DNA of 36,650 nucleotides from Verrucomicrobiota bacterium (GTDB lineage: Bacteria > Verrucomicrobiota > Verrucomicrobiia > Opitutales > Opitutaceae): NCBI GenBank assembly GCA_003402695.1, contig QQNC01000007.1, positions 1 to 36,650 of the forward strand. Reading direction: 5' to 3'. The notes under the pieces are model-generated. The model was given only the letters and a program-made list of their open reading frames with translations. It did not search any database and was not told the DNA's origin. Position 1 is the stretch's first letter. The number at the start of each line of letters is the position of its first letter. Of this stretch, positions 2,744-27,012 are shown piece after piece. A program made the translations under genes and the position numbers.

Positions 2744-2791
2744 GTAGGGTGCGCGCTCGCGCGCAACGATGCCCCCGAGCGGGCAACCTAC
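2744..2791. repeat. Two-hairpin palindromic element between convergent genes
   Basis: The 48 bases between the thioesterase gene and menE are bounded by inverted GTAGG/CCTAC. They contain the perfect palindrome TGCGCGC-TC-GCGCGCA and a second weaker GCCC/GGGC stem. The right end covers the menE stop codon. It may act as a bidirectional terminator, though no T-tract follows, or be a small interspersed element. Confidence 0.5.
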
Positions 2792-3957
2792 AGCCGAACC
2801 GCCGCCACCAACGCCGCCCGATTCAGCTTCCCCTGCGCATTGCGCGACCACTCCGCCACCGCCACGTAACGTTTCGGCCGCTTGAACGCCGTCAGGCCCG
2901 CCAGGGCCGCCGTCAGCCGCGCTGGATCCGGCTCTTTGCCCCCCGCGGGATAACACGCCACCACCGTCTGCCCCCATTCCGGATCCGGCAGACCCACCAC
3001 TCCCACATCCGTAAACTCACCGCTGGCGCGCAAGGCCGCCTCCACCTCCGCCGGCTGGACTTTTTTTCCGCCGGTGATGATCACCGCATCGCGGCGGCCC
3101 AAGACGTGTAGCCGCCCGCGTTCATCCAGCTGCCCGAGATCCTCGGTGATGAATTCCCGCGCCGCACTTTCCCCGGGGAAATAACCGCGGAACACCGACT
3201 CGCCCGTGATTCTGATCACGCCCTCGCCGTCGATGGCAATCCGCGCGTGCGGCAGCGCCGCACCACTGCTGCGATCACCCGCCAGGAATTCCGCCGGGCG
3301 CAGCGCCGTCACCATCGCCGCAGTCTCGGTCATCCCATAGCTCAGCGACACCGGCAGTTCCGCGCGGGCCGCGGCGTCCGCCAGCTCAGGCCACACCGGG
3401 CCCCCGCCGACAAAGATCACCCGGAATCCCCGCAGCCAGACCACTGCGTCCGGCGAGAGCAGCAGCCGTTGCAGCTGCGTCGGCACGAGCGATATCACCC
3501 AGTTCTCCGCCGACAGCACCGGCCGCCGGCCCGCCTCGATTCTTTTCCACTCCGCCGCCAGATACTCGCCGCCCGTCGCCGCACAGCGCACCCGCGCCAT
3601 CAGCCCGCTCACATGGTGCGAGGGCAACACGCCGACCGCATTCACGCGCTCGAGTCCGAAATGCGCGCAAAACCCCTCCACCGCCGCCGACAGCGTGCGC
3701 TCATCATGCCGCGCAAACCGCACCTCGCCACTCGTCCCGCCCGTCGGCAGGCAGAGCCAGCCGTCGGCACTATTCGAAGTTGGATTCCCTCCTTCGCCAA
3801 GGCGAGGGAGGGCGGACTCGAATTTCGCTTGCTGGATCGCGGCCACGGCCGCGCGCTCGGCCGCGCCCCATGCGGGGTCGCACAGAAACGTGAACCCGTT
3901 ACGGACTTCCGCGCAGCCGGTGGACCGGAGCAATTTACTCAGCTCAGTGCGTTCCAT
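2788..3957 (-). CDS. menE: o-Succinylbenzoate-CoA ligase (MenE)
   Basis: MenE adenylates o-succinylbenzoate and forms its CoA thioester in the menaquinone pathway. The 389-residue protein shows the adenylate-forming P-loop-like motif PTGGTSG near residue 71, SYGMTE in the middle, and a C-terminal domain with TEDLGQLDERGRLHVLGRRD and GGKKV. The expected catalytic Lys lies in QGKLNRA near the end. MERTELSK is chosen as start, overlapping the 3' end of menC by 19 bp and implying coupled translation. The protein is short for an acyl-CoA ligase but within the range of compact MenE proteins. Residues about 45-62 are encoded by a palindromic DNA insert just before the P-loop. Confidence 0.9.
   Translation of the reverse strand: MERTELSKLLRSTGCAEVRNGFTFLCDPAWGAAERAAVAAIQQAKFESALPRLGEGGNPTSNSADGWLCLPTGGTSGEVRFARHDERTLSAAVEGFCAHFGLERVNAVGVLPSHHVSGLMARVRCAATGGEYLAAEWKRIEAGRRPVLSAENWVISLVPTQLQRLLLSPDAVVWLRGFRVIFVGGGPVWPELADAAARAELPVSLSYGMTETAAMVTALRPAEFLAGDRSSGAALPHARIAIDGEGVIRITGESVFRGYFPGESAAREFITEDLGQLDERGRLHVLGRRDAVIITGGKKVQPAEVEAALRASGEFTDVGVVGLPDPEWGQTVVACYPAGGKEPDPARLTAALAGLTAFKRPKRYVAVAEWSRNAQGKLNRAALVAAVRL
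3772..3823. repeat. In-frame palindromic element inside menE
   Basis: A 12-bp stem (CCCTCCTTCGCC at 3787-3798 against GGCGAGGGAGGG at 3801-3812, one G:T pair) has a two-base centre. It is nested in an outer ATTCGA/TCGAAT pair. The whole segment is translated as part of MenE (residues about 45-62, SALPRLGEGG) without disturbing the frame. Confidence 0.65.
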
Positions 3958-4994
3958 ACGGCCTCCGGTTGGATCCGCTCGACGTCTTCCCAATGCAAAA
4001 ACGGGCCCGTGTACGGCCCGTCGAAGCGTCCATCCGCAAACAAGGGCCACACGCCGAACCCCAGTGCCCTGGGCTCACCCGGCCACGCAAACGCCGCGCG
4101 CAGCGCCGCCTTCGCGCCCAGCCGCGTTTCCAGCGACGAGGAAAACACCACCACCGCCTTCGCCTTGGCCAGCCGGGCGAGCGTGCGCTTCACGTCGCCC
4201 AGCAGCGCCGGCTTCACCACGAAAACCCCGCGCCACCCCAGTCCCAGCCAGCGCTCCACTTCCCCATCACCCGTCAGCGATTCGTCCAACGCCAGCGGCG
4301 TCGGAAAATCCTCCGCCAGGCCCAGCAATAGATCATCCATCTTGCTCAAGGCCGGGCCCGGAGACCTGCACGCCGCAGGCTTGGCGAACGACGGAGGTCC
4401 GCTGAAAACAGGCTGCTCCACAAACTCCACCGGCCGGTCGGCACAGCGTTCGAGCCAGCGTTCCGCCTGGCGCCGGTTCCACGCCCCGTTCGCATCGAGC
4501 CGCAGCTTCGCCCCGCCCGGCAGCGCGGCACACACGTCGTCGAGCAGGGCCAGCTCGTCGGCGAGGTCGCCCACGCCCACCTTCCACTTGAACACCCGAA
4601 ATCCCGCCTCCGCCTTCGGTCCGATCTGCGTCAGCGCCGCCCGTCCCGCCGGCAGCAACGCCGCCACGCCGAGATGAATCTGCGCCGGTGCCCGCTTGAC
4701 GGCTTCTTCCCGCGCCACCTCCAGGGCATTTTTCAGGCAGCCCAGCCGCTCCGGCACGGCGTCCAATCTCCGGTCATCGACGGCCTCGCCGAGTTCACGG
4801 CAAACCGCCTCAACCTCGTCCACGGTCTCGCTTCCAAACCACGGAATCGGCGACGCCTCGCCATAGCCCGTCTGCCCCGCGGCGTTGAGCAGCTGCACCA
4901 GCACCCCTTCCCGGTCCGCCCACGGGCCGTGCGCCGTCCGCACGGGCGAACGGAAGGGCAGCCGGTAGCGGCGGTAGTGCAGGCGGTAACTCAC
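3939..4994 (-). CDS. menC: o-Succinylbenzoate synthase (MenC)
   Basis: MenC is an enolase-superfamily enzyme that dehydrates SHCHC to o-succinylbenzoate, the substrate of the overlapping menE. With the GTG start the product is 351 residues. The superfamily residues are visible: KWK (K136, K138), D167 in RLDANGAW, E193 in VEQP, D237 in LDES and K261 in VVKP. The start [22 protein letters not shown] is typical of the family. The longer ORF-track start adds about 55 residues lacking family character. Between E193 and D237 the chain is longer than expected, and residues about 198-214 correspond to a repeat-like insert. The gene diverges from guaB and is the upstream member of menC-menE. Confidence 0.9.
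4354..4402. repeat. In-frame repeat-like insert inside menC
   Basis: The segment contains the imperfect inverted pairs GACCT/AGGTC and CGCC/GGCG, and the string CTTGGCGAACGACGGAGG. The latter shares CTTGGCGAA with the element in menE. It encodes [17 protein letters not shown], low-complexity residues between the EQP and DES catalytic motifs where other MenC proteins have a short loop. Confidence 0.5.
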
Positions 4995-5076
4995 GCCGCA
5001 CACGTCACACGCCCCTCGAGCCCGGTGCAAACCTGACTTTCTGTTTGCGCTCGGCGCCCATGGCCTTACTGCGTTC

Positions 5077-7493: not shown

Positions 7494-8838
7494 ACCGGCG
7501 AAATTTGTCACCGTCGGGCTGGCGGGCCTGGGACTCGCCGCCCTGTTCTGCGGGTTTGCCTACATCACGAATTCCACCACCGGGCTGCCGCTCAAATGGC
7601 CCCCGGGCCTGATTCCCATGCGGATCATGGTGGACGATGTTACCCTCCTGAGTGACGGGCTCACCCGGGCCAAATCCATCCAGGCGGCCATGGTGAATTC
7701 TACGCGGGGATGGAACCCCAACCTCGGCAACGCCCAGCTCTCCCCTACCATCGTGCCCGTCGGGAGCGGTGGCGCCGATGACAACCACCAGAACGAGATC
7801 TTCTACTCCGACGCGCCCTACAGCATGGCGTGGGAAACCAACACCCTCGCCGTGACCACGGCCTGGTACAGCAGCAATCAGCGCATAGAGGCTGACATTA
7901 TTTTCAACAATTCGTATACATGGGACTCCTACCGGGGCGCGCGCCGGGGCAGCGTGGTCGACATCCAGCGCGTCGCCCTCCACGAACTCGGCCACGTGCT
8001 GGGCCTGGATCACCCGGATGAGGCCGGGCAGACGGTGGCCGCGGTCATGAACAGCCATGTAAGCGATCTCGATTCACTCGCGTCCGACGATATCACCGGG
8101 GCCCAGCGCCTTTACGGTCCGCCCGGAATTCCGGCCAACAATAATTTTGCTGCAGCCGTGACGATCAACTTCAGCGGCACCTCCACCACCGTCACCGGTT
8201 TCAATACCAATGCCTACAAGGAGGTCGGCGAACCCAACCATGCAGGCAACAGTGGCGGCCGCTCGGTCTGGTGGAAATGGACGGCCCCGGGTCCCGGGAG
8301 CGTGTCCATCACCACGGCCGGCAGCGTGTTCGACACCACCCTCGGCATCTACACCGGCACCACGGTCGCGGGCCTGACCGCGGCGGCCACCGATACCACC
8401 CTCGATGACGTGCAACCCGGTGTCGTGCAGTCCAGCGTGGGCACGTTTACCGCCATCGGCGGCACGACTTACTCCATCGCCGTGGATGGCTTCAATAATT
8501 CCGATGGCCGCGGGGCAGACTCCGGCGCGATCACACTCAACGTTAGCTTCACGGCCTTTGGCACCAGCACCACCACCAGCACGACCGCGAGTTCCACCGC
8601 CCCTTCCACCTCCAGCACCACGACCTCCATCGCAACGACCACCATCCCCCCCACCGGCGGCGGAAGCACGACCGCGAGTTCCACGGCTCCTTCCACCTCC
8701 ATCACCACGACCTCCATCCTACCCACCGGCGGCGGATCGTCGGGCGGGGGTGGCGGCGGTGGCGCGCCCAGTGTCTGGTTCCTCGGCGCGTTGAGCCTCC
8801 TGGTCTTCGCGCGTCGACTGCGGCCCAAGGCGGAATGA
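7483..8838 (+). CDS. Matrixin-like zinc metalloprotease with GlyGly-CTERM-like tail
   Basis: This 451-residue protein begins with an N-terminal signal or anchor (TVGLAGLGLAALFCGFAY). It carries the full metzincin zinc site HELGHVLGLDH at 167-177 and a Met-turn candidate (AAVMNSH) after it, so it should be an active exported protease. Residues about 215-355 form a beta-sandwich-like module (GEPNHAG, SVWWKWTAP, FDTTLGIYTG, YSIAVDG) like pre-peptidase C-terminal domains. A Ser/Thr-rich linker with an internal 87-bp duplication follows. The protein ends in a glycine run, one hydrophobic helix (VWFLGALSLLVFA) and RRLRPK, the layout of a GlyGly-CTERM sorting signal processed by rhombosortase. The next two genes encode rhombosortase-like proteins. 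Its stop overlaps the next start as ATGA. Confidence 0.88.
   Translation: MPIKPAKFVTVGLAGLGLAALFCGFAYITNSTTGLPLKWPPGLIPMRIMVDDVTLLSDGLTRAKSIQAAMVNSTRGWNPNLGNAQLSPTIVPVGSGGADDNHQNEIFYSDAPYSMAWETNTLAVTTAWYSSNQRIEADIIFNNSYTWDSYRGARRGSVVDIQRVALHELGHVLGLDHPDEAGQTVAAVMNSHVSDLDSLASDDITGAQRLYGPPGIPANNNFAAAVTINFSGTSTTVTGFNTNAYKEVGEPNHAGNSGGRSVWWKWTAPGPGSVSITTAGSVFDTTLGIYTGTTVAGLTAAATDTTLDDVQPGVVQSSVGTFTAIGGTTYSIAVDGFNNSDGRGADSGAITLNVSFTAFGTSTTTSTTASSTAPSTSSTTTSIATTTIPPTGGGSTTASSTAPSTSITTTSILPTGGGSSGGGGGGGAPSVWFLGALSLLVFARRLRPKAE
8578..8740 (+). repeat. 87-bp tandem duplication in the protease linker
   Basis: Segments 8578-8631 and 8665-8718 are near-identical 54-bp copies (starting AGCACGACCGCGAGTTCCAC) with a period of 87 bp. 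Each is followed by a version of ACCGGCGGCGG, the second copy having lost about 12 bp. They encode the STTASSTAPST linker. Confidence 0.85.
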
Positions 8839-15064: not shown

Positions 15065-15886
15065 TTAGCCGTGGCCGAAGGTGATGACGTCGAGATTCAG
15101 ACAGCCGGCGCGACGGAGTACAAGGGCGCAGCTGTTGAGGGTGGAACCGGTGGTGAAAACGTCATCAACCAGGATGATGTGGAGGTCTGGATTCAACTGG
15201 GCGCCCCGGACCAGTGCAAAGGCATTTTTCAGGTTCGCCTGGCGGGCTTTCCTATCGTGATGCGTTTGTGAAACGGTGTCCGCCGTCCGCCGCAGCCACG
15301 ATTCCACCTGGGCCCCTCCCCCCGCCGCCCGGGCCAGCGCGCCGGCCAGCAGCAGACTCTGGTTGTAAGCGCGCTCACGCTCCTTGCGCGGGTGCAAGGG
15401 CACCGGCACGAGCACCGCGCCGCGCGCCAGCTCCAGCACGTGCGGCGAACGCCGGAATATTTCCTCCATGTCCGACAGCACAAACAGGCCCCGGTGATAC
15501 TTCAGCTCATGCACCAGGGCCCGCGCCGGGCCTTTCAACAGCACCGCCGTCCGGCCCTCACGGTAAGCCGGGGCGAGTCCCTCACAATGCGGACACATTC
15601 GTTCCCCTGCCATCTCGCCGTAAAACGGATGCCCGCAGGCCGAGCAGTGCGGTGGTGACACAAAATCAATCTGCTTCACGCAGCGCCCGCACACATGCCG
15701 GAAACCGCCCGCCCGGTTGTCCGTAGTCTCGTTGTCCGTAGTTCCGCTGTCCGTAGTCCCGCCGTCCGCAGTCCCGTTGTCCGCGCCAGCATCCACCAAA
15801 CCCCGGCACAGCACGCACCCCGGTGGAAACACCACGTCGCCCAGCCCGCGCGCAAGTTGACCGAGCGTGGCGTTCACCTTGTTCAC
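15065..15886 (-). CDS. comF: ComF family phosphoribosyltransferase-like protein
   Basis: ComF-type proteins combine a cysteine zinc module with a phosphoribosyltransferase fold and are linked to DNA uptake or handling of imported DNA; the biochemical role is not settled. The 273-residue product has CVLC, CGRC, CSACG and CPHC pairs in its first 120 residues, LVPVPLHP in the middle and the PRPP loop [13 protein letters not shown] near the C-terminus. GTG 15886 is chosen (GTG 15877 also possible). The ORF upstream of this runs into an intergenic palindrome. A 15-bp tandem repeat inserts a Thr/Asp-rich stretch between the first and second cysteine pairs. It is the first gene of comF-accD-folC. 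Confidence 0.87.
15717..15785 (-). repeat. 15-bp minisatellite inside comF
   Basis: Four copies of a 15-bp unit (consensus on the plus strand TTGTCCGTAGTCCCG) plus a 9-bp partial copy run head to tail with few mismatches. Because the unit is a multiple of three, copy-number change keeps the frame and only alters a Thr/Asp/Gly-rich linker between zinc-binding cysteine pairs. Confidence 0.9.
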
Positions 15887-15940
15887 GGAAGGCGGAAGCG
15901 TTTTATCACGAAGCCCCGAGGACCCGAAAGGCCGGGAGTT

Positions 15941-16030
15941 TGTCATTCTGAGCGCAGCGAAGAATCCAGTGAGATGGCGCCGCGCGCTTCGCGGTCGTCC
16001 AACTGGATTCTTCCCTTCGTTCAGAATGAC
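15941..16030. repeat. 90-bp interspersed palindrome, copy 1
   Basis: Arms 15942-15970 (GTCATTCTGAGCGCAGCGAA...) and 16002-16030 (...CGTTCAGAATGAC) are inverted copies, 26 of 29 matching. This is the type of repeat that generates spurious CHSERSEES reading frames in many bacterial genomes. It fills the gap between comF and truA. A diverged copy of the same length is at 25951-26040. Confidence 0.88.
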
Positions 16031-16118
16031 AGTCCGAGGATGAATCGATTCCCCCATTCCGCACCGCACGCTTCCGCGATAAATCCGTATCCGCGTCTTC
16101 CACGGACGGCCGGGGTCG

Positions 16119-24082: not shown

Positions 24083-24967
24083 ATGTCGCAGAAAATTGCC
24101 TTCGTCGGAGTCGGTCGCATGGGCGCTAACATGGCCCGCCGCCTCAAGGATACCGGCCACACGGTCACCGCGGTTTATGACGTGCACGCGCCCAGCGCGG
24201 CCGAGCTCGCCAAGGAAATCGGTGCCACGCACGCCGCCAAGCTCGCCGACGTCACCGCCGCCGCCGACATCATCTTCACCGTCGTCACTGACGACGCCGC
24301 CCAGCTGGCTGTGTTCGCCGAGAGCGGCGACTCCCTCCTCACCGGGGCCAAGGGCAGGATCTTCATCAACTGCGCCACGCTCACGCCCAAGGTCCACGTC
24401 GAGGTGGAGAAGCGGGCGAAGCAGGCCGGCGCCATCTCCCTCGAAGGCTGCATGGCCTCGTCCATTCCCCAGGCCCGCAACGGCACACTTTATCTGATGT
24501 GCGCCGGCGACAAGGCCACCTTCGACCAGGTGAAGCCCATCCTCGACCAGCTCAGCACCGCCCTCCGCTACATCGGCCCAACCGGCCAGGCCGCGCAGGT
24601 CAAGGCGCTCGTCAACATGGTCATGAACATCAACACCGCCGGCCTCGCTGAGGGCCTCGGCCTCGGCGCCGCGCTCGGGCTCGACCTGGCGATGCTCCGC
24701 GAGGTGTTCCTCCAGACCGGCGCCAACTCGCAGGTCCTCAAGACCGACGGCGAGGACATGCAGAACCGCGACCACTCGTGCTTCTTCTCCGGCGCCCACG
24801 CCGCCAAGGACAGCGGCATCGCCGCCCAGCTCGGCAAGGATGTCGGCCTCAACCTCCCGCTCGCCAACGCCACCAAGGCCCAGTTCGACCAGATGGTGAA
24901 ACTCGGCCTCGGCAGCCTCGACAAATCCGGCGTCGCCGAACTCACCTTCAAGGGCCGACACGCGTAA
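24083..24967 (+). CDS. NAD(P)-dependent beta-hydroxyacid dehydrogenase-family oxidoreductase
   Basis: This 294-residue member of the 3-hydroxyisobutyrate/tartronate semialdehyde reductase family has an N-terminal Rossmann start FVGVGRMGANMARRL, a DVHAPSA turn after strand two, and the substrate-side segment GCMASSIPQARNGTLYLMCAG, where the family usually has DAPVSGG. The catalytic-lysine region is GPTGQAAQVKALVNMVMNIN (family: GxGxxxKxxNN). The changed substrate loop means specificity should not be assumed. It sits between the HTH-MBL gene and the isomerase on the same strand and is likely co-transcribed with them. Confidence 0.9.
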   Translation: MSQKIAFVGVGRMGANMARRLKDTGHTVTAVYDVHAPSAAELAKEIGATHAAKLADVTAAADIIFTVVTDDAAQLAVFAESGDSLLTGAKGRIFINCATLTPKVHVEVEKRAKQAGAISLEGCMASSIPQARNGTLYLMCAGDKATFDQVKPILDQLSTALRYIGPTGQAAQVKALVNMVMNINTAGLAEGLGLGAALGLDLAMLREVFLQTGANSQVLKTDGEDMQNRDHSCFFSGAHAAKDSGIAAQLGKDVGLNLPLANATKAQFDQMVKLGLGSLDKSGVAELTFKGRHA

Positions 24968-25099
24968 TTTTCGAATTTGGATTTTCGATTCGCTCCGGCG
25001 GGCGTCCCCCGCCGCCGGAGGGTTCCGACAATCAGAATTCGCGAATCAAAACCGCCTCCCCTCTCCGTAATCGAAAACCGAAAATTGAAATTCGAAAAT
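24967..25099. repeat. Nested inverted-repeat element filling an intergenic gap
   Basis: Left arm 24967-24990 (ATTTTCGAATTTGGATTTTCG...) is mirrored by right arm 25069-25099 (AATCGAAAACC...TTCGAAAAT). Inside is a GC-rich hairpin, CTCCGGCGGGCG against CGCCGCCGGAG. The element begins within the stop codon of the dehydrogenase and ends inside the ATG of the isomerase. Confidence 0.72.
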
Positions 25100-25943: not shown

Positions 25944-25950
25944 GCCCGTT

Positions 25951-26040
25951 TGTCAGTCTGCGCGCAGCGAAGACTCCCGTGGAACTTCGCTGCGCACTTT
26001 GATTCCGGCCAACTGGACCATTCGCCTCGGTCAGAAGGAC
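25951..26040. repeat. 90-bp interspersed palindrome, copy 2 (degenerate)
   Basis: Aligned without gaps to 15941-16030, about 66 of 90 positions match, including TCTG(A/C)GCGCAGCGA on the left and AACTGGA plus TCAGAA on the right. The inverted arms are decayed (about 17 of 26 pairs). It lies between the isomerase gene and the DUF4214 gene. Confidence 0.75.
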
Positions 26041-26049
26041 CCTCCGGCC

Positions 26050-27012
26050 ATGACCGCTTCCTCCAAACTGCCCAGCTGCCCGGCCTTCTTGCTGGGCGCG
26101 CTCCTCGCCCTGCTCGCCCTCCCCGTCCGCGCGCAACCCGTCTCCCGGCCCGGCCCGCTGCCCGGAACGCCGTATGGCCCGCCCCCGGGGCGTGTGCTGT
26201 TTTTCCCGGGGCCCAATTTCAGCGGCGAGCCCCTCATCGTGCCGGCCGCCGGTGCCCTCGAGAATCTGGAATACGTCCGCGACTCCCGCGGCCGCAAGTG
26301 GAACGACCGCATCGCCTCCATCCGGGTCGAGGGCCCGGTGCTGCTCCTCCTGTATGAGCACGCCGATTTCCAGGGCGCCACCGCGACGTTGACCCGCGAT
26401 GCCGCCGACCTGAATGCCCTCTCGCTCGGCGACCACCACGGCACGACCTGGGCCCAGCGGGTTTCCTCCGTCCGCATCGAACCCCTCCGGCCGGCCGCCC
26501 CGGGTTTCATCCAGTGGGAACGCCGCGACGCCGAACGCGCCGTCCGCGCCGCCTACCACGACCTCCTCGGCCGTGATCCTGACGAACGCGGCCAGCGCGA
26601 TTACCGCGACCGGCTGATGAGCCGCGGGTGGACCGAGGACCAGCTGCGCGATGCCATCCGCCACAGCCCCGAGTTCCTCCACCGCGACGTCAGCGAAATC
26701 ATCCGCCGGCTTTACCGCGAGGTGCTCCGGCGCGAGCCCGATCCCGCCGGCAGTGCCAAGTACTCCCGCGCCCTGCGCGAGGGCCTGTCGGAATCCGAGC
26801 TGCGGGCCGAACTCCTCCGCAGCCGCGAATACGCCGAGCTTCACGCCCGGGAAGTCATCGCCCGTGCCTACCGCGAAATTCTCCGCCGCGAGGCCGACGC
26901 CGCCGGATTCGCCACCTACCTGAAGCGCATGGCCGAGCAGGGCTGGGACGAAAACCGCGTCCGCGACGCCCTCCGCTCGAGCGACGAATACCGGCGGCTG
27001 CCGCGGCGCTAG
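26050..27012 (+). CDS. Exported beta-gamma-crystallin plus DUF4214 repeat protein
   Basis: The 320-residue protein has a signal peptide (LLGALLALLALPVRAQP). Two beta-gamma-crystallin Greek-key motifs follow: FFPGPNFSG near 51 and YEHADFQG near 102, each ending in a DRIASIRV or QRVSSVRI segment like the calcium-binding part of that fold. The C-terminal half holds three DUF4214-like helical repeats of about 52 residues (AAYHDLLGRDPDERG, LYREVLRREPDPAG, AYREILRREADAAG). DUF4214 is common in S-layer, phytase-like and RTX proteins, but its pairing with a crystallin module is unusual. The ORF track's earlier start runs through the 90-bp palindrome, so ATG 26050 is chosen. Confidence 0.85.
   Translation: MTASSKLPSCPAFLLGALLALLALPVRAQPVSRPGPLPGTPYGPPPGRVLFFPGPNFSGEPLIVPAAGALENLEYVRDSRGRKWNDRIASIRVEGPVLLLLYEHADFQGATATLTRDAADLNALSLGDHHGTTWAQRVSSVRIEPLRPAAPGFIQWERRDAERAVRAAYHDLLGRDPDERGQRDYRDRLMSRGWTEDQLRDAIRHSPEFLHRDVSEIIRRLYREVLRREPDPAGSAKYSRALREGLSESELRAELLRSREYAELHAREVIARAYREILRREADAAGFATYLKRMAEQGWDENRVRDALRSSDEYRRLPRR

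Follow-up and report, generated by a model that had tools for sequence, protein, structure and literature searches.

Palindromic repeats of very small size have been described in several lineages, in which they are mostly intergenic, lineage-specific, and tied to REP-associated tyrosine transposases (RAYTs). The small dispersed repeats (SDRs) of cyanobacteria, hairpins of about 21-27 bp whose mobility shows in presence/absence comparisons, insert preferentially in short tandem repeats, and RPE-1 of the Rickettsia palindromic elements (RPEs) is about 100-150 bp long. In the passages of PMC4390886, PMC2884548, and PMC3116915 that refer to Elhai et al. 2008, SDRs are given as about 20-30 bp and apparently mobile. 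The sections of Di Nocera et al. (PMC3733652) on Opitutus terrae present this organism as rich in GTAG REPs and as having the most intragenic ones, and the same source tags RPE-4/6 by CGTC; as far as these sections go, the general phenomenon is thus already known in this phylum.

The present study deals with a palindrome in the menE gene of a Verrucomicrobiota bacterium (Opitutaceae; assembly GCA_003402695.1), analyzed in a window of 36,650 nucleotides, namely positions 1 to 36,650 of contig QQNC01000007.1. At a probability of about 0.8, this palindrome appears to be a copy of a short, mobile, non-autonomous DNA hairpin of 30 bp, inserted in the common ancestor shared with the closest relative, the congener G066. 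The hairpin resembles the O. terrae GTAG REPs, which the sections cited above describe as palindromes of 20-40 bp in many copies, some translated within genes and carrying GTAG, whereas in the present hairpin this motif lies internally and is frequently GAAG, arm sequences are free to vary, and the copies are not flanked by a RAYT; it is set apart from the O. terrae families by description and, given the extent of that description, may be identical with one of them. Its length and copy number, 30 bp with 22 copies in this genome and 0-59 per congener, fall in the range of GTAG REPs, but GTAG does not lie at the end of the stem-loop, as GTAG REPs require, in either the cross-phylum or the own-genome alignments. 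The passages on SDRs describe a very small size, an apparent mobility, and a preferred insertion at short motifs or repeats, all of which may have counterparts here; SDRs are likened by description only, and belong to another lineage, whereas the present unit has 30 bp and a conserved core found across phyla. RPEs likewise lie as palindromes in frame in protein genes with function apparently kept, and such in-frame insertions were found here in menE, EutN, a nucleotidyltransferase, and RsmB, but RPEs are set apart by their much greater length and their lineage-restricted distribution. REPINs (PMC3116915) resemble the tRNA-linked copies, which form inverted doublets about 90 bp apart, but the moving unit here is a single copy, as filled and empty sites differ by one 30-bp unit, doublets occur only at tRNA genes, and no RAYT association was found. 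The 30-bp hairpin works like the REP, SDR, and RPE families, but the lack of a flanking REP transposase, the internal GTAG, and a length far below that of the Rickettsia elements give no support for counting it among the REPs or RPEs.

The menE linker and its nested repeats

The following features were distinguished at the locus:

2788..3957, minus strand: menE, 2-succinylbenzoate--CoA ligase, N-terminally short form; intact ORF with matches to PF00501 and PF13193
3771..3786, minus strand: A+T-rich tract, 3' half in the coding direction, AATCCAACTTCGAATA, with the translation NPTSN; homologous to AAATCGAAAATCAAAAATC, (AAATCCG)n, and the like in most aligned congeners and several genera
3787..3816, minus strand: putative 30-bp G+C-rich mobile hairpin, a 30-bp gap in congeners without it, present in G066, and matching the family model
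3816-3787, minus strand: layout of this hairpin, with tail TCCG, arm CCCTCC, core CTCGCCTTGGCGAA, and arm GGAGGG
3817..3829, minus strand: A+T-rich tract, 5' half in the coding direction, GCGAAATTCGAGT, with the translation AKFES; from the same menE alignment

Comparison with solved structures revealed 2-succinylbenzoate--CoA ligases as the nearest solved relatives of MenE. The menE genes of this genome and G066 differ by a dN of 0.04 and a dS of 0.24, and the dN/dS of about 0.16, obtained against both G066 and G067, indicates that menE is under purifying selection. Together with the intact ORF, this ratio suggests that MenE activity is presumably kept, as the earlier note had supposed. That note had also reported a palindromic element in frame just before PTGGTSG, and a strong palindrome does occupy 3772-3823 in the menE reading frame, directly ahead of this motif. 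Its stem is, as described there, a near-perfect inverted repeat of 12 bp (CCCTCCTTCGCC / GGCGAGGGAGGG) with one G.T, and the strand folds better than its shuffled versions (z = -3.3; 0 of 200 as good).

The site was further compared in a DNA alignment of nine same-genus menE sequences, including that of the window, taken from the twelve orthologues found. The 30-bp stretch is missing in seven of the eight other congeners (G067, G015, G068, G059, G069, G065, and G063) and is shared only with G066, whose MenE is 92% identical, so that the absence of these residues from close relatives, which the earlier note had proposed to look for, was found for the hairpin part. In five of the seven genes without the hairpin, the gap position lies within a translated A+T-rich tract of AAATCGA-like heptamers (SKIENQKSII, SKIEIQNSRI, SKIENRNSKI, SEIRNPKSEI, and SETRNPKSEI), and G065 and G063 have linker sequence of another kind. 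An A+T-rich tract also occurs at the same linker in several other genera, and the linker length differs among genera. Since the gap falls inside the translated tract of the congeners, an older A+T-rich tract was entered by a younger G+C-rich hairpin.

From these sequence comparisons, the 52 bp resolve into two repeats, one nested in the other, and the movable unit is the 30 bp at 3787-3816. The second inverted pair that had been seen around the stem is accordingly real but different in kind, as it consists of the two halves of an A+T-rich, TTCGAA-like heptamer tract older than the palindrome. Likewise, the idea of an inserted palindromic element stands with respect to insertion, to a dispersed family, and to its presence in other protein genes, but not as one element of 52 bp. 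The genome search proposed for it recovered the 52-bp sequence as a whole only once, whereas the G+C core is repeated in 22 copies, the best other copy being 89% identical over 27 bp. Moreover, CCTTCGCCAAGGC has 55 near-matches in the genome versus 8 for the reversed control, and the A+T-rich tract family 73 versus 0. Heptamer tracts of this type often form inverted pairs in this genome, 50-130 bp apart; in the window, inverted arms of the menE tract type (ATTTTCGAATTTGGATTTTCGATT ... AACCGAAAATTGAAATTCGAAAAT) lie at 24967-25099.

Unit size, fold, and distribution of the hairpin family

The cross-phylum consensus of the family is 30 bp long, C(T/C)TG-(T/C)CCGCC-GTAGCCTTGGCGAA-GGCGG(A/G), and comprises a CYTG tail, a 6-bp arm, the 14-nt core, and a complementary 6-bp arm, with boundaries that agree with the pairs of filled and empty sites. 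In addition to menE, a presence or absence of exactly 30 bp net was found in EutN (filled in this genome only), a nucleotidyltransferase (filled in this genome, G067, and G015, and empty in G066, G059, and G068), and RsmB, although all genic cases were selected for keeping the frame, so that the fixed size rests partly on selected examples. At RsmB the ends are unambiguous (junction TGGCGC^GGG), with neither target duplication nor target loss; in menE, EutN, and the nucleotidyltransferase, a few substitutions separate the bases flanking filled and empty sites, and the perfectly clean junction thus comes from RsmB only. At the RsmB site, G068 carries another hairpin that shares this layout, CCCTCC-GAAG-TCCCGCTTGGCGGGA-CGAA-GGAGGG, and a scan for complementary arms around GNAG...CGAA returned 41 cases versus 0 in reversed sequence, with inner lengths mostly of 6 and 15. 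The hairpin amounts to ten codons and is free of stops in five of its six frames, which explains why insertions are tolerated in frame. Junctions were also enriched in short repeats, as three or more shared 7-mers spanned 12% of them compared with 2.4% of control positions (odds 5.5, p = 6e-5), and most copies lie outside short repeats.

Consensus DNA folding gave a hairpin on both strands, and in the cross-phylum and own-genome alignments GTAG, often GAAG, sits in an internal loop inside the outer arms, opposite GAA. Among 52 copies chosen independently of their arms, 86.8% of arm cells were paired, compared with 76.6% after shuffling and 23-50% with partners slid, and double changes numbered 47 versus 17.9 in shuffled sets; part of this covariation derives from tRNA-linked copies (CCA/TGG). 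Although the arm sequences drift, they stay complementary and the internal loop (GNA facing GAA) is retained, which suggests that a folded single strand is recognized.

A covariance model trained on 36 sequences detected the copies given above at E<0.01, with none in G062 and G065, 26 in G064, 29 in G068, and 59 in G015, and core counts in the family were far above reversed controls. The menE hairpin scored 36.2 bits (E 3.1e-7 in the window and 2.4e-5 in the genome), slightly favored because the G066 menE copy is among the training sequences. An Rfam search of window positions 3500-4600 matched no family, and on eight related loci it gave only sub-threshold microRNA-family matches. The exact 24-mer CCGCCGTAGCCTTGGCGAAGGCGG was present in >117 loci on genome contigs of many phyla, with a chance expectation far below one; its carriers belong to Verrucomicrobia, Acidobacteria, Planctomycetes, Alphaproteobacteria, Omnitrophota, and CPR, and include Bradyrhizobium isolates as well as Doudnabacteria, Gottesmanbacteria, and Omnitrophota MAGs. 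The 30-mer had no match in the plasmid and E. coli collections and two partial matches, at chance level, in the phage collection; the exact 24-mer occurred on just 8 of the 2.9 million IMG/VR contigs, which makes phages an unlikely main carrier. Within the library searched, the core sequence strings led to no relevant paper, and searches on palindromic repeats in Opitutaceae or CPR yielded nothing on this hairpin. At one locus (L128, Verrucomicrobia Ga0077533), at least eight matches to the hairpin lie within about 2.6 kb, in long direct repeats, where a hairpin copy seems to have been amplified along with its surroundings.

Copies in genes, menC, and tRNA ends

Hairpin copies were identified within or close to the genes of RsmB/F (two), an arabinofuranosidase, a YgjP-like metallopeptidase, the PurL N-domain, EutN/CcmL, the nucleotidyltransferase, a class II aldolase, an M28 peptidase, and a biotin/lipoyl protein; some copies close to predicted N-termini may lie upstream of the gene instead. 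Many copies occur in either orientation, in unrelated coding sequences, and are species-specific. Some odd linker peptides in environmental bacterial proteins, such as SLGEGG, FAKATA, and LRQGFGGQ, are probably translated repeats. Next to menE, two features were assigned in menC:

3951..5006, minus strand: menC, o-succinylbenzoate synthase, with PF21508 (MenC_N) and PF13378 matches
4365..4394, plus strand: inferred degenerate hairpin copy right after VEQP, with core GCAGGCTTGGCGAA and 3 mismatches

The menC copy alone scores below the covariance-model threshold, and its identity is thus an assignment by resemblance; in the G066 orthologue the arms are better (CCCGCC). Across the menC loci compared (L018-L047 and L078-L086), the linker after VEQP contains differing hairpins or none, depending on lineage, and thereby appears to be an insertion hotspot parallel to the menE linker.

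Hairpin copies also overlap the 3' ends of tRNA genes (Ser, Arg, Leu, Tyr, and Val; loci L273, L278, L077, L221, L226, L228, L373, L380, and L381), always in one exact register, in which the stem starts with the encoded CCA, opposite TGG. All six inverted hairpin pairs examined, with about 90 bp between copies, come after a tRNA gene. An identical 331-bp stretch containing tRNA-Ser and a hairpin doublet was found in G015 (L378, G015:C8:69500-69830) and G064 (L379, G064:C2:1420-1750), whose menE genes are clearly different; this identity would reflect recent transfer or contamination.

Mode of spread and alternative explanations

Under the main reading, the hairpin inserted, in the ancestor of this genome and G066, into a menE linker already lengthened by the A+T-rich tract. 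Insertion would take place without target duplication or loss, as cleanly seen at RsmB, and with a preference for short repeats; most genic insertions would lengthen the protein by ten residues rather than break it, and those in exposed linkers would persist while others are lost. The data show the insertion itself, its exact size, the reading in frame, membership in the family, the arm covariation, and the wide distribution; beyond these, we infer that the hairpin may move as single-stranded DNA by means of an enzyme supplied in trans, which would read the hairpin fold. A more far-reaching and still tentative version holds that the hairpin is defined by structure, with the internal loop GNA opposite GAA recognized and the arms and inner stem drifting freely (30-bp and 39-bp forms), and that an enzyme with no relation to the known REP transposases carries it from one bacterial phylum to another, CPR among them; with a length that is a multiple of three, it would be able to colonize genes, and it would dock on tRNA 3' ends by taking CCA into the stem.

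A classical REP or REPIN moved by a RAYT would account for a short palindrome with GTAG in its core, for the inverted pairs, for the RAYT-type genes of 9 of the 12 genus genomes, and for the abundance of REPs, some intragenic, that the O. terrae sections of PMC3733652 report. We regard it as unlikely, since none of 30 Y1_Tnp loci in 11 copy-rich genomes is flanked by the hairpin, a motif scan of the exact 24-mer loci found no RAYT-type gene, and G017 has 37 core copies and zero Y1 matches; furthermore, GTAG, or often GAAG, lies inside the stem opposite GAA and not at its foot, every inverted pair observed is linked to a tRNA gene, and menE carries one copy only. Functional signals, such as terminators, RNA-processing sites, or DNA-binding sites, whose spread and retention would be due to selection and not to selfish behavior, are less probable still: the exact placement at tRNA 3' ends with CCA in the stem and the maintained arm complementarity would suit them, whereas the many species-specific copies in either orientation within unrelated coding sequences, and the congeners without any copy, would not.

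A non-mobile quasi-palindrome, arisen locally by template switching in an unconstrained linker, could draw on the variable linker length among genera, and quasi-palindrome correction could keep the arms complementary, but it is contradicted by the same 14-nt core, which recurs at dozens of unrelated sites of the genome as well as in other phyla, and the filled and empty sites of four genes differ by exactly the same 30-bp unit, which together make this origin very improbable. Hardly any weight, and slightly less again, falls on a Rickettsia-type element, the comparison drawn by the earlier note: it holds for the manner in which a palindrome colonizes protein genes in frame, but not for kinship, given 30 bp versus about 100-150 bp for RPE-1 and a different family whose GTAGCCTTGGCGAA core spans unrelated phyla. 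If the mobile-hairpin reading is true, the unit would rank among the smallest mobile DNAs whose insertion is documented at the level of genes, by filled and empty sites in sister species, and congeners with 0 to 59 copies make the search for the mover of such hairpins testable.

Other repeats were also detected in the window. A 106-bp repeat is present at 15938-16043 and 25948-26053 (73% identical), its first copy containing a 30-bp inverted repeat, TGTCATTCTGAGCGCAGCGAAGAATCCAGT, as another palindromic repeat type. Tandem 15-mers (TGTCCGTAGTCCCGC) occupy 15718-15777, and a tandem repeat rich in AGCACC/ACCTCC at 8566-8746 may encode a Ser/Thr-rich stretch.
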